64,000 nucleotides of DNA, from positions 496,001 through 560,000 of the forward strand of contig NZ_LT671417.1 of NCBI RefSeq assembly GCF_900128445.1, written 5' to 3'. Within the stretch, counting starts at the first letter, position 1, and every line of letters starts with the position of its first letter. Positions 4,982-33,719 of this stretch are shown one piece after another. Under the pieces are notes generated by a model, which did no database searches, was not told the DNA's origin, and was given only the letters and a program-made list of their open reading frames with translations. The translations under genes and the position numbers were made by a program. This DNA comes from Thermophilibacter provencensis. Its GTDB lineage: Bacteria > Actinomycetota > Coriobacteriia > Coriobacteriales > Atopobiaceae.

Positions 4982-5048
4982 CTGACAGGGGTGACGGGGT
5001 CAACCGTCATGAATCATTCATGACGGTTGACCCCGTCACCCCTGTCAG
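4982..5048. repeat. 33-bp perfect inverted repeat, variant of the TGACA palindrome
   Basis: Bases 4982-5014 and 5016-5048 are perfect reverse complements around one base. The arms read like those at 2377-2463 but with several substitutions (for example GTGACGGGGTCAACCGTCA instead of GTGACAGGGTCAACTGTCA), each matched in the other arm. A further outer pair, ATTTGCTGAC at 4977-4986 and its complement at 5056-5065, partly overlaps it. The element follows the glgB stop and may end transcription. Confidence 0.93.
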
Positions 5049-9654: not shown

Positions 9655-9728
9655 TAATCCGCCCTGTGGCGTCATTGGCAAAACGCCAACTGGCCTTTTG
9701 TTAACTTCCGGCGCCACAGGGCGGATTA
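9655..9728. repeat. 74-bp hairpin element (copy A) next to the nuclease-like gene
   Basis: Arms of 17 bases (9655-9671 and 9712-9728, starting TAATCCGCCC) are perfect complements around a 40-base loop. The loop has its own small stem TTGGC/GCCAA (9675-9689) and contains GCCAACTGG, the same core found in the loops of the two hairpins at 32093 and 33390. It lies 36 bases beyond the stop of the minus-strand gene 9765-10862. It is much longer and more elaborate than an ordinary terminator. Confidence 0.9.
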
Positions 9729-9764: not shown

Positions 9765-10862
9765 CTAGCAGGGACCGAGCGACTCACCGCCTTCCCACGG
9801 CAGCAGGGACCAGATGAGCCTCTGCCGCGCCCTCGTCTCTTCCGGGTCCCAGACCTCATCGGTGAGCACGTCTTTTGCGCGCGGCCCGCCGAGGCGCTCC
9901 GATGCCATGAGCGCCTCAAGGATGACGATGTCGAGTCCGCCGTGGTCAAACAGGTCCTCAGAAACGACCGACATGACAATCCGGCCCTGGGCGGCCAGTT
10001 CTCGGTCCCTCCTCCTATCATCAACGTACTTCTGACGGAGGGAGGCCAGCGCGCGGCCAAGCTCGTCTTTGTTCTCGGCCGCCGTGGCAACCGATTCGAG
10101 GTCGAGGTGCCCGCGCCCGTCGTAGTTAAAGCCCACGGGACAGTCATCGAGGACTATGTCGGGCACGCGGGCGTTCGCGCACCCCCTTCTGACGAGCTCC
10201 CACGGATTGTCCTGCCGCTCGTTGAGGTGGATTCTTCGGATTCCGTATCCGTGCTCGGTGACGGGCTTCTTGAGGAGCAGCGCAATGGTCGCCTCCATTG
10301 CGGACCAGGCGTTGTCCTCAATGCTGAGAAGGGCGCGCCGCGCCGCGTTTGTCCCGGTGAGCCTGTGTGTCTCTTCTATGAAGGAGCGGATGCTCGCAAC
10401 GTCTGTGACGGGGCTGAGCCCGTGGGTGACCTTTCCAGACCGAGGATTGAGAGGATCGCGACAGAAGCTCCCGCACAGCTCATATCCCAGCAGACCGAGC
10501 GCGGCGGGTTTCATGATTGTGGCAAGCTCAACAAAGAGGAGCTCAGGGCAAGGAATCGCAAGGCTCTCCCCAAGCCGGAGAAACGACCCCTCGGGAAGTC
10601 CCGAAAGATAGAGGGTGTTCTTGAAGAAAGAGGCGAGCGGCCGCGCGCCCTTTGAGGGGACCGCCACGTAGACGGGCCGCGAGCTGCTTGGCGGGTCCGA
10701 GAGACCGAGGAGCTGATGAGGGATGATCCGCGCGGTCCACCGGTGCTGCGGATGGGGATCGGGCTCGGGGAGGCCGCAGACCTGGGCGGATGCGTATTCC
10801 CCCGAGGCCCTCACGTGACGAAGAAGCGCGAGCGCAGACAGCTTGTTGACGCAAAGACGCAC
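9765..10862 (-). CDS. AbiEi/DUF559-like putative nuclease (paralogue 1)
   Basis: A 365-residue protein that aligns over its whole length with the 396-residue product of 32167-33357. Both share C-P/G-P-E-L-L-F near 105-110, G-Y-E-L-C-G near 126-131, PDI at 234-236, G-F-N-Y-D-G-x-G-H-x-D-L at 244-255 and a basic segment D-D-x-R-R-x-R-E-L-A-A about 25 residues later, ending W-S-L-L-P-W-E. The acidic/His cluster followed by a D-x-R-R-D-R-x-L-x-x-x-G helix resembles the VSR/DUF559 endonuclease-like fold that is often fused to AbiEi-type domains in actinobacteria. That family call is by eye. Start is GTG (10860-10862). The gene stands alone, with a hairpin element downstream and AT-rich DNA upstream. 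Confidence 0.6.
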   Translation of the reverse strand: MRLCVNKLSALALLRHVRASGEYASAQVCGLPEPDPHPQHRWTARIIPHQLLGLSDPPSSSRPVYVAVPSKGARPLASFFKNTLYLSGLPEGSFLRLGESLAIPCPELLFVELATIMKPAALGLLGYELCGSFCRDPLNPRSGKVTHGLSPVTDVASIRSFIEETHRLTGTNAARRALLSIEDNAWSAMEATIALLLKKPVTEHGYGIRRIHLNERQDNPWELVRRGCANARVPDIVLDDCPVGFNYDGRGHLDLESVATAAENKDELGRALASLRQKYVDDRRRDRELAAQGRIVMSVVSEDLFDHGGLDIVILEALMASERLGGPRAKDVLTDEVWDPEETRARQRLIWSLLPWEGGESLGPC

Positions 10863-16193: not shown

Positions 16194-16201
16194 CCGTGCG
16201 C

Positions 16202-16280
16202 CGTGCAAAAGGGACAGTCACTTTTGCACGGCGGCGACCGACATCAGAGAGCGTGCAAAAGTGACTGTCCCTTTTGCACG
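16202..16280. repeat. Inverted pair of 29-base palindrome-like units (GGGACAGTCAC family)
   Basis: The unit at 16202-16230 begins CGTGCAAAAGGGACAGTCAC and each unit is itself a near palindrome (CGTGCAAAAG at one end, CTTTTGCACG at the other). An exact reverse-complement copy occupies 16252-16280, with 21 bases between. The whole can fold into a 29-bp stem. It ends at the ribosome site of the next gene, so it may affect that gene's translation. Confidence 0.93.
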
Positions 16281-16292
16281 GGAGGAGCGGAC

Positions 16293-31926: not shown

Positions 31927-32013
31927 GCGGGCGTGGCGGAATTGGCAGACGCGTACGGTTCAGGTCCGTATGGGGGCAACTCCATGAAGGTTCAAGTCCT
32001 TTCGCCCGCACCA
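31927..32013 (+). tRNA. tRNA-Leu (anticodon CAG)
   Basis: Acceptor GCGGGCG/CGCCCGC, anticodon arm TACGG-TTCAGGT-CCGTA with CAG, a long variable arm (class II), T arm with GGTTCAAGTCC, and an encoded CCA at 32011-32013. Confidence 0.95.
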
Positions 32014-32050: not shown

Positions 32051-32092
32051 GTGCCGCGGGCTGCGACCGCCCCGTCCCCTGCTACGCCTGCG

Positions 32093-32171
32093 ATTAACGC
32101 GCACTCGTGCACGGTTCTTCTCGCGTTTGCCCAGTTGGCACTTTAGAACTCGTGCACGAGTGCGCGTTAAT
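32093..32171. repeat. 79-bp hairpin element (copy B, left)
   Basis: Perfect 21-base arms (32093-32113 and 32151-32171, beginning ATTAACGCGCACTCGTGCAC) enclose a 37-base loop with inner pairings GTTCT/AGAAC and TGCC/GGCA. The stop codon of the nuclease-like gene (32167-32169) is inside the right arm. The loop, read on the other strand, nearly matches the loop of the hairpin at 33390-33468, so the two elements are inverted relative to each other. Confidence 0.95.
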
Positions 32172-33357
32172 CTCCGGCGAGGGAAACCTCCTCCACCGTC
32201 ACGAACTCGTCCCCCAAAAGGAGGACGTCCTCGGGCGCCGCGTCGCTCGCCTCCGGGCGCGCCGCCATGGCACGGGCGTAGCGCGCCCCCGGTTCCCACG
32301 GGAGGAGCGACCAGATGAGTTTCTGGCGTTTCCGGGCGAGCAGCGGAGACGCGAGTGCCAGGCGCACGTCCCCGAGCGATTGGCCGCAGAGCTCCTCGCA
32401 GGCCATGGACGCCTCGAGCATGACGGTGTCAAGCCCGCCGTCGGCAAACAGGTCGTCGGCGATGACGGGCAGGATTATCTTGCCGCGCGCGGCGAGCTCT
32501 CGGTTTCTCCTGAGGTCGTCGAGGTATTTCTCGCGCACGCCGCGTATGGCCTCCGTGCGCTCCTCGGCAGACTCTGCCCGAGCGATGGAGGCGAGGTCAA
32601 AGTGCCCGTACCCGTCATAGTTGAATCCCATGGGCGTTCCGTCCACCTCTATGTCGGGCACGCGCGACGCCCTTACCTCACGTTGCAGCAGTTCGGCCGT
32701 TGTCTCGCGGCGGACGTTGAGGGTCACGGACCCCGCGCCGAAGCCCAGCTCGGTGACGGGCAGGCGGACGAGAAGCGCGAGGAGCGCCTCCGTAGGTGAC
32801 CAGGCGTTGTCAGCGACATACGCAAGGGCGCAGCGGGCCTGGTCAACGCCGCGCAGGCCTGGGCAGCCGTCGAGAAACTCCGCGATTCTCGCCTTCGTGG
32901 TGGCCGGCTCGACGCCAAACGTCACGTTGCCCGTTCGCGGCGTGCGCGGGTCGCGCGCGTAGGTGCCGCAGAGCTCGTAGCCTACGAGGGCGTGGACGAT
33001 GGGGTGCATAACTCCCGCAAGCTCGAGGAACAACAGCTCGGGGCCAACGGAGGCGACCTCCTCACCCAAGCTGATGTAGGAGCCGGACGGAATGTCGTCA
33101 CCATGCACGGCGCTCCGGAAGAATGCGGCGCGCGGTCGCAAACGCGCCTGCGGGACCACGATGTCAAGGGGGCGCTCGTGGCTTGGCAACTCGTCAATCG
33201 CCAGCGGGCCCTTCGGTATGATGCTGGCGGTCCAGCGTCGCTGCGGGGCAGGGTCCGGCGCGGCGAGGTCGGTCCGGGCGCCGGTCAGCCGGCCGTTCTC
33301 GCCTCGCTCGCGCCGCAGTGCTCTCAGCGCGGACATCCGATTGACGGTGAGAAGCAC
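32167..33357 (-). CDS. AbiEi/DUF559-like putative nuclease (paralogue 2), flanked by hairpins
   Basis: A 396-residue homologue of the 9765-10862 product. An N-terminal helical/winged-helix-like region with V-N-R-M-S-A-L and P-E-L-L-F-L-E-L (about 106-113) precedes PDI (234-236), G-F-N-Y-D-G-Y-G-H-F-D-L (244-255) and K-Y-L-D-D-L-R-R-N-R-E-L-A-A-R-G (277-292), which resemble the acidic and basic motifs of DUF559/VSR-like endonucleases. The end differs from paralogue 1 by a 31-residue acidic extension. GTG 33357 follows GGAGGAGGGGG. The gene is alone, bracketed by two 79-bp hairpins, and its stop codon lies in one of them. Catalytic activity is inference. Confidence 0.6.
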   Translation of the reverse strand: MLLTVNRMSALRALRRERGENGRLTGARTDLAAPDPAPQRRWTASIIPKGPLAIDELPSHERPLDIVVPQARLRPRAAFFRSAVHGDDIPSGSYISLGEEVASVGPELLFLELAGVMHPIVHALVGYELCGTYARDPRTPRTGNVTFGVEPATTKARIAEFLDGCPGLRGVDQARCALAYVADNAWSPTEALLALLVRLPVTELGFGAGSVTLNVRRETTAELLQREVRASRVPDIEVDGTPMGFNYDGYGHFDLASIARAESAEERTEAIRGVREKYLDDLRRNRELAARGKIILPVIADDLFADGGLDTVMLEASMACEELCGQSLGDVRLALASPLLARKRQKLIWSLLPWEPGARYARAMAARPEASDAAPEDVLLLGDEFVTVEEVSLAGD

Positions 33358-33389
33358 GCCCCCTCCTCCCGACGAGCGGCTGATAGGGA

Positions 33390-33468
33390 ATTAACGCGCA
33401 CTCGTGCACGGGTTCTTAAATGCCAACTGGGCAAACGTAAGAAGAGCCGTGCACGAGTGCGCGTTAAT
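33390..33468. repeat. 79-bp hairpin element (copy B, right)
   Basis: Arms 33390-33410 and 33448-33468 are identical to those of the left copy and enclose a 37-base loop holding TGCCAACTGGGCA (33421-33433). It lies 32 bases upstream of the nuclease-like start. Left and right copies together give 79-bp terminal inverted repeats to a 1.38-kb unit. Confidence 0.95.
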
Positions 33469-33494
33469 CGAGAAGAACCTGCGGGCCGAATCCG

Positions 33495-33686
33495 CTACTC
33501 GTCGCCCTCGTCGTCGAAGAGGTCCCAGTCACCCTCGGACTTCTCGTGGTTGAAGTAGCGCTTCTTGGTGGTGCGCTCCATGAGCAGGGCAATGATCAGG
33601 CAGATGACGATTCCGCCGAGAATCAGGCAGATGACGCCCGTCTGGTCATTGAAGAGCCATGTGAAGAAGTCGCCAATCGCCTGCAT
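33495..33686 (-). CDS. Small single-pass membrane protein
   Basis: A 63-residue protein with one strongly hydrophobic segment (about 18-36, G-V-I-C-L-I-L-G-G-I-V-I-C-L-I), a basic stretch (K-K-R-Y-F) and an acidic tail D-W-D-L-F-D-D-E-G-D-E. It diverges from serS and appears to share its promoter region. No family recognised; the codon use and clear N-terminal start support a real gene. Confidence 0.65.
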   Translation of the reverse strand: MQAIGDFFTWLFNDQTGVICLILGGIVICLIIALLMERTTKKRYFNHEKSEGDWDLFDDEGDE

Positions 33687-33719
33687 GCACCCTCCCGGGA
33701 ACGCGTCGTTTCATCCGCA

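Follow-up and report, generated by a model that had tools for sequence, protein, structure and literature searches.

The stretch of DNA analyzed here, a window of 64,000 nucleotides from Thermophilibacter provencensis (G000:C3:496001-560000), contains a gene that lies between two hairpins and belongs to a family whose members appear to be partnered with palindromic repeats of their own. We favor, at a probability of roughly 55%, a REPtron-like partnership in which a protein of the Vsr/DUF559 type takes the place of the HUH transposase and works with its own palindromic repeat family. At the level of sequence it can be shown that hairpins of the gene's own type stand beside each gene, that the hairpin sequence changes along with the gene, and that solo copies of the hairpins occur at the 3' ends of other genes, while cleavage and mobilization of the hairpins by the protein are what we infer. 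REP and REPIN palindromes and their transposases have so far been tied to a single fold (HUH, IS200/IS605-like). If the partnership is real, a second and unrelated fold would be paired with extragenic palindromes, and such partnerships would have arisen more than once.

The features of the window are collected in Table 1. As the sequence-only reading of this DNA had described, the gene is bracketed by two 79-nt hairpins in opposite orientation, its TAA stop codon is supplied by the left hairpin (GATTAACG), and no transposase was found within the unit bounded by the hairpins (32093-33468). The arms had also been taken as identical and the loops as nearly so; here the likeness stands and the identity does not, as the perfect arms measure 21 bp on the left and 22 bp on the right, the loops differ by length, and the two hairpins are 93% reverse-complementary across 81 nt. 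The loop of the left hairpin carries the core TGCCAACTGGGCAAACGCGAGAAGAAC on the minus strand. When folded as single-stranded DNA, each of the two hairpins reaches -32 to -36 kcal/mol, compared with a mean of about -11 to -12 kcal/mol for dinucleotide shuffles (z of -9.6 to -10.6, with 0 of 200 shuffles as good). The open reading frame is real, as a 91% identical copy is found in the same placement in Olsenella sp. SW781 (G012), the nearest sampled relative, which also carries a 100% identical copy of the left hairpin at the same site. The protein has no match among the Pfam, NCBIfam, and PADLOC models, and no Rfam family reaches its gathering score at either hairpin. A match to MIR949 at 32080-32184 falls far under the gathering score and reflects only the hairpin. 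The hairpin of the second family member in the window has a weak second copy at G000:C3:562588.

Table 1. Coordinates of the two family genes of the window, their hairpins, and the bordering features
Feature	Position	Strand	Details
3' hairpin of second member	9655-9728	-	arms TAATCCGCCCTGTGGCG, 17 bp; loop 40 nt
Second family member, clade B	9765-10862	-	365 aa; between argG-like and argH-like genes
tRNA-Leu	31927-32010	+	next to the gene site; a terminator hairpin and T-run come after it
Left (gene 3') hairpin	32093-32171	-	arms 32093-32113 and 32151-32171; loop 37 nt
Hairpin-associated gene	32167-33357	-	396 aa; GTG start; TAA stop at 32167-32169
Right (gene 5') hairpin	33390-33468	+	arms 33390-33411 and 33447-33468; loop 35 nt
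Small conserved ORF	33496-33687	-	ends beside the right hairpin; marker for the site in 31 genomes

Relatives of the protein were sought in 60 related genomes, and many were found at 31-54% identity. The flanks of these relatives were scored for palindromic arms at a single fixed threshold (a score of at least 12 within 260 bp). In Olsenella-like genomes, 43 of the 46 relatives counted as full or near-full have a hairpin no more than 260 bp away. Shuffled flanks gave such a hairpin in 0 of 460 cases, and other segments taken from these loci in 2 of 259. At the same threshold, distant paralogs have a hairpin in 6 of 19 cases. The family falls into two clades. Clade A genes mostly have a hairpin on both sides, whereas clade B genes, which sit between argG-like and argH-like genes and include the second window copy, have one on the 3' side only. 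Arm sequences vary widely among genes (e.g., ATTAACGCGCACTCGTGCACG, TAACACGCACGGTTTG, ATTAGTGTACATAATCC, ATTAACGGACAAAATTCGA, and TAGCATACACTG), but the arms 5' and 3' of the same gene match with a mean of 13.9, against 5.7 between genes (permutation p ≤ 1e-4 for 24 genes, with a statistic that ignores relatedness). Of the three conditions that would have counted against the sequence-only reading, two turned out in its support, as homologues in other genomes have hairpins and hairpins are present at further loci. Most hairpin arms start with TAAC, TAGT, TAGC, or TAAT, and in at least four genes (the window gene and those at L103, L014, and L062) the TAA of the hairpin is the stop codon of the gene. 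The loops share a short core near CAACTG or CCTGCGGATAT, which can be found on either strand. No relatives of the window protein were found in viral contigs. By these comparisons, the association between gene and hairpin is well supported.

Hairpins also occur at other loci, as dispersed solo copies in several genomes. A search of 12 genomes with nine gene-flanking hairpins from other loci gave type-specific populations, with 1-17 solo copies per type found mostly in genomes that have the cognate gene. For the loc2 type, G001 and G011 contain about 17 solos apiece, G003 contains 5, and G017 contains 2; all four carry a loc2 gene, and genomes without one have 0-1 solos. Smaller populations are formed by the L068 type in G017 (4-6 solos), the L029 type in G013 (about 6), and the L026 type in G004 (4) and G025 (3). 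The window type is present at about 5 places in G000 and about 11 in G012, both gene-bearing, and at about 8 places in G018, which lacks the gene; elsewhere in the genus there are at most 1-2 weak copies. Similarly, 5-8 solos of the loc3 type are found in G004 and G024, and no loc3 gene was found in either genome. Such orphan hairpins are apparently what remains after gene loss. The placement of 50 solos was read from neighboring frames called by GC3. Of these, 36 could be classified between genes, 15 of them convergent, 21 tandem, and none divergent, while 3 lie inside a called frame and 11 are unclassified. The lack of divergent placement among the 36 speaks against promoter operators and resembles the placement of REPs.

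The history of the window site can be followed through its borders, as the small ORF is found beside it in 31 of 31 genomes of the genus searched and tRNA-Leu usually lies on the other side where the contig extends far enough. The site holds a family gene in nine genomes and nothing in several. In G018 and G004 it holds one hairpin and no gene; the hairpin of G004 is cognate, and that of G018 has the same right-hand flank as the right hairpin of the window. The empty site that the sequence-only reading had suggested looking for thus exists in G018 as an allele that lacks the gene but keeps one hairpin, and the mobile unit is therefore not simply 32093-33468. None of the compared loci offered a clean empty site; the intergenic DNA changes too quickly, and the positions concerned are taken up by other repeats. 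In the protein tree, the occupants of the window site (loc1) require at least four changes on well-supported (starred) branches, and the argG-argH site holds clade A and clade B genes in opposite orientations, so the same sites have been filled or refilled more than once.

Hairpins are also found where these genomes differ in arrangement. In G004, a near-identical relative of the G025 gene adjoins tRNA-Leu, with its other side joined to a different region. Both breakpoints of this rearrangement (L030 and L140 in G004; L344 in G025) have hairpins of the same type, and a hairpin of the breakpoint type is present in G025 near the partner site. In G012:C33 (L104, 5118-8040), two window-type hairpins bracket an AbiEi/AbiEii-like operon (AbiEii, E=2.9e-19; AbiEi_4, E=2.3e-4, below the Pfam cut-off), and between the corresponding flanks G000 has one hairpin and no operon. 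A comparison of G001 and G011, with flanks about 93% identical, gave ten shared hairpin sites and about a dozen unshared ones, at which the other genome often carries a different palindrome family. No clear target-site duplication was found at three sites compared among G000, G012, G018, G005, and G020, nor at four sites among G001, G011, and G027. At one intergenic site of G001 and G011 (L268 and L290), the same hairpin type is present in opposite orientation.

The family protein is marked by a set of highly conserved residues. D235, N246, Y247, R275, D281, R284, and R286 are invariant in the 39 aligned members, and D248 and H252 are each present in 38 of 39, giving the motif D235..N246-Y-D248..H252 in the window protein. 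The Asn at N246 is found in 39/39 where relatives have the canonical catalytic Glu, and as such, activity cannot be assumed. Vsr itself has a Thr at the position where others have Glu, so the change from Glu to Asn does not by itself exclude catalysis. Alignment of the family profile (A1) with a profile of distant paralogs (A3) gave E=1.3e-50 and pairs the block GFNYDG..H..DD..RNREL with EYDS..H..D.RR...L. The A3 paralogs in turn match DUF559 (PF04480; E 2.7e-4) and REase_MTES_1575 (PF18741), both weakly. In the PDB their profile comes closest to 3r3p, an entry labeled 'Mobile intron protein', with a match that falls short of significance (E=0.2). Searches of the PDB from the window sequence alone and from the A1 alignment gave no match. 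The nuclease relation proposed by the sequence-only reading is supported by profile chaining only, because the AF2 model, built from five sequences (the two window proteins and L059-L061), reached a pLDDT of 38 and was useless. Family proteins have no Pfam match to Y1_Tnp and no conserved HUH motif, an H-hydrophobic-H string being present in 4/39. The family protein is probably a distant DUF559/Vsr-like relative derived from a nuclease, and we infer that it may act as one. Its core aligns with the distant paralogs over a D..(E/N)-Y-D..H..D-x-x-R block, although the core family matches none of the DUF559, MTES_1575, Vsr-like, and EDxHD (I-Bth0305I) models and differs in the Asn described above. 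EDxHD homing endonucleases such as I-Bth0305I use a restriction-enzyme-like mechanism (PMC3943268). No palindrome partner for any of these families is described in the papers found.

The closest known counterparts are the REP/REPIN-RAYT systems, or REPtrons (PMC3116915, PMC2817692, PMC8266576). In both cases the gene is flanked by cognate palindromes that are also dispersed extragenically, several gene and repeat types are present per genome, repeat and protein change together, and orphan repeats are found where the gene is absent. The earlier analogy with REP/RAYT therefore fits the architecture well (gene, flanking cognate palindromes, and dispersed copies). RAYTs, however, are HUH enzymes with a catalytic tyrosine, whereas the protein here is a DUF559/Vsr-like relative, and REPs carry a GTAG tag in place of the TAA-type foot and large loop seen here. 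Lacking both a conserved HUH motif and the GTAG tag, the family is not a member of the REPtrons. In TIRYTs and their TIRtrons (PMC3733652), long inverted repeats likewise flank the gene and form a moderately abundant dispersed family, but TIRYTs are tyrosine (HUH) transposases, and the terminal repeats seen here are hairpins in their own right. The hairpins also resemble MITEs in being 70-80 nt long, non-coding, dispersed, polymorphic between relatives, and bounded by inverted termini; they differ in that neither an IS parent sharing their ends nor a target-site duplication was found. No earlier description of this partnership between gene and hairpin was found in the open-access collection searched.

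Under the proposed partnership, the protein, as a Vsr/DUF559-derived member of the PD-(D/E)XK superfamily, would recognize its cognate hairpin, probably in extruded or single-stranded form, through the palindromic arms, the conserved TAA-foot, and the CAACTG/CCTGC loop core. TnpA_REP has been described to recognize and cleave single-stranded REP (PMC8266576). A nick at the hairpin would then set off the copying or recombining of hairpins and, on occasion, of the gene that they enclose. The gene would afterward be inherited mostly at a few sites, where it may be lost by recombination between the hairpins, leaving one behind, or sometimes be replaced by another member of the family. A broader form of this proposal, to which we give somewhat less than even odds, is that a large paralogous family derived from Vsr/DUF559 in Atopobiaceae, and possibly in wider Coriobacteriia, constitutes an unrecognized class of repeat-maintaining proteins. 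Each member would be dedicated to one extragenic palindrome of its own and would copy or recombine it, in functional convergence with REPIN-RAYT and with a D-N-D-H active site rather than the HUH tyrosine. Such a class would provide a functional lead for a large uncharacterized paralog family in common gut Actinobacteria, and many natural pairs of protein and hairpin specificity with which to study the reading of DNA hairpins by a nuclease-like protein. The partnership also predicts entry and exit points of genes, including a toxin-antitoxin operon, in these genomes.

Several observations speak against the partnership, namely the lack of a target-site duplication and of a clean empty site at the loci compared, the hairpin populations without the gene (G018, and the loc3 type in G024 and G004), the loss of the catalytic Glu in 39/39, and the clade B genes with only a 3' hairpin. 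Alternatively, the hairpins may be docking or recombination sites for cargo, of which the gene is one among several, exchanged through homologous recombination of direct-repeat arms or a homing-like cut by the protein. Although we consider this unlikely, it would fit the operon held between two hairpins in G012:C33 and matched by one hairpin in G000, the single hairpins at the gene's site in G018 and G004, and the G004/G025 breakpoints at hairpins of one type. Most solo hairpins, however, are unpaired and without cargo, and passive recombination leaves the correspondence between hairpin and gene sequence unexplained. Much of the evidence would also agree with cargo exchange, which may form one biology together with the partnership. 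It is considerably less plausible that the hairpins are operators or RNA elements through which the gene regulates itself and a regulon of solo-bearing genes. Copies upstream of the gene lie about as far from it as copies downstream, which would suit such a role, and the co-variation of protein and site is what a regulator and its operator would show, but 0 of the 36 classifiable solos lie between divergent genes while 15 lie between convergent ones, and neither hairpin belongs to an Rfam family at the gathering score.

A slightly lower probability still is given to the hairpins being REP- or MITE-like repeats that an unrelated transposase, of the HUH (RAYT) or DDE kind, spreads in trans, with the association to the gene being incidental. 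Y1_Tnp genes of RAYT size are indeed present in 9 of 10 genomes tested. G005, however, has no Y1_Tnp match and yet contains two family genes flanked by hairpins, along with about 7 solos of a single type; this led to the proposal that the protein itself reads its own hairpin. In addition, 0 of the 4 Y1_Tnp genes in G000 lie near a window-type hairpin, and an incidental association would not give arms that match per gene. Least probable of all is that the gene encodes an AbiEi-like antitoxin or another defence protein and that the hairpins are only terminators. Weak AbiEi_1 matches (E ~0.06-0.1) in two relatives point this way, but there is no AbiEii partner within 32093-33468 and no PADLOC match, and clade A hairpins stand on both sides of the gene without a T-run. 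For the defence-linked role raised by the sequence-only reading, nothing direct was found, although the AbiEi/AbiEii-like operon of G012 does lie between a pair of hairpins.

Ten DUF559-like paralogs were examined in G000, most of which are flanked by other palindromic repeats. The repeats of three of them (L226, L229, and L232) are dispersed, and a repeated word of at least 14 nt is found in the flanks of 8/10 paralogs compared with 8/22 ordinary genes. Extension of the partnership to all DUF559-like paralogs of G000, each with flanking repeats of its own, is only suggestive because several other palindrome families occupy gene ends in this genome. The palindromes in the flanks include GTACGTACAC at L226, GCACTCGCGAGTGC at L228, GGTACGCAAAT at L231, TGCCACAACCCC at L232, and AGACTAGGTGCGAG at L233.

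Other repeats are present in the window itself. A different palindrome family (GTGCAAAAGTGACTGTCCCTTTTGCAC) is found at 16201-16281, with about 15 copies in the genome and no partner gene identified, and long hairpins of the TGACA..GGGTGAC..GTCA type lie at gene ends at 2377-2463 and 4982-5048. The word GTTCTTCTCG / CGAGAAGAAC is repeated in the intergenic DNA of all Olsenella-like loci read and in many hairpin loops, with one example at 33470-33480 of the window.
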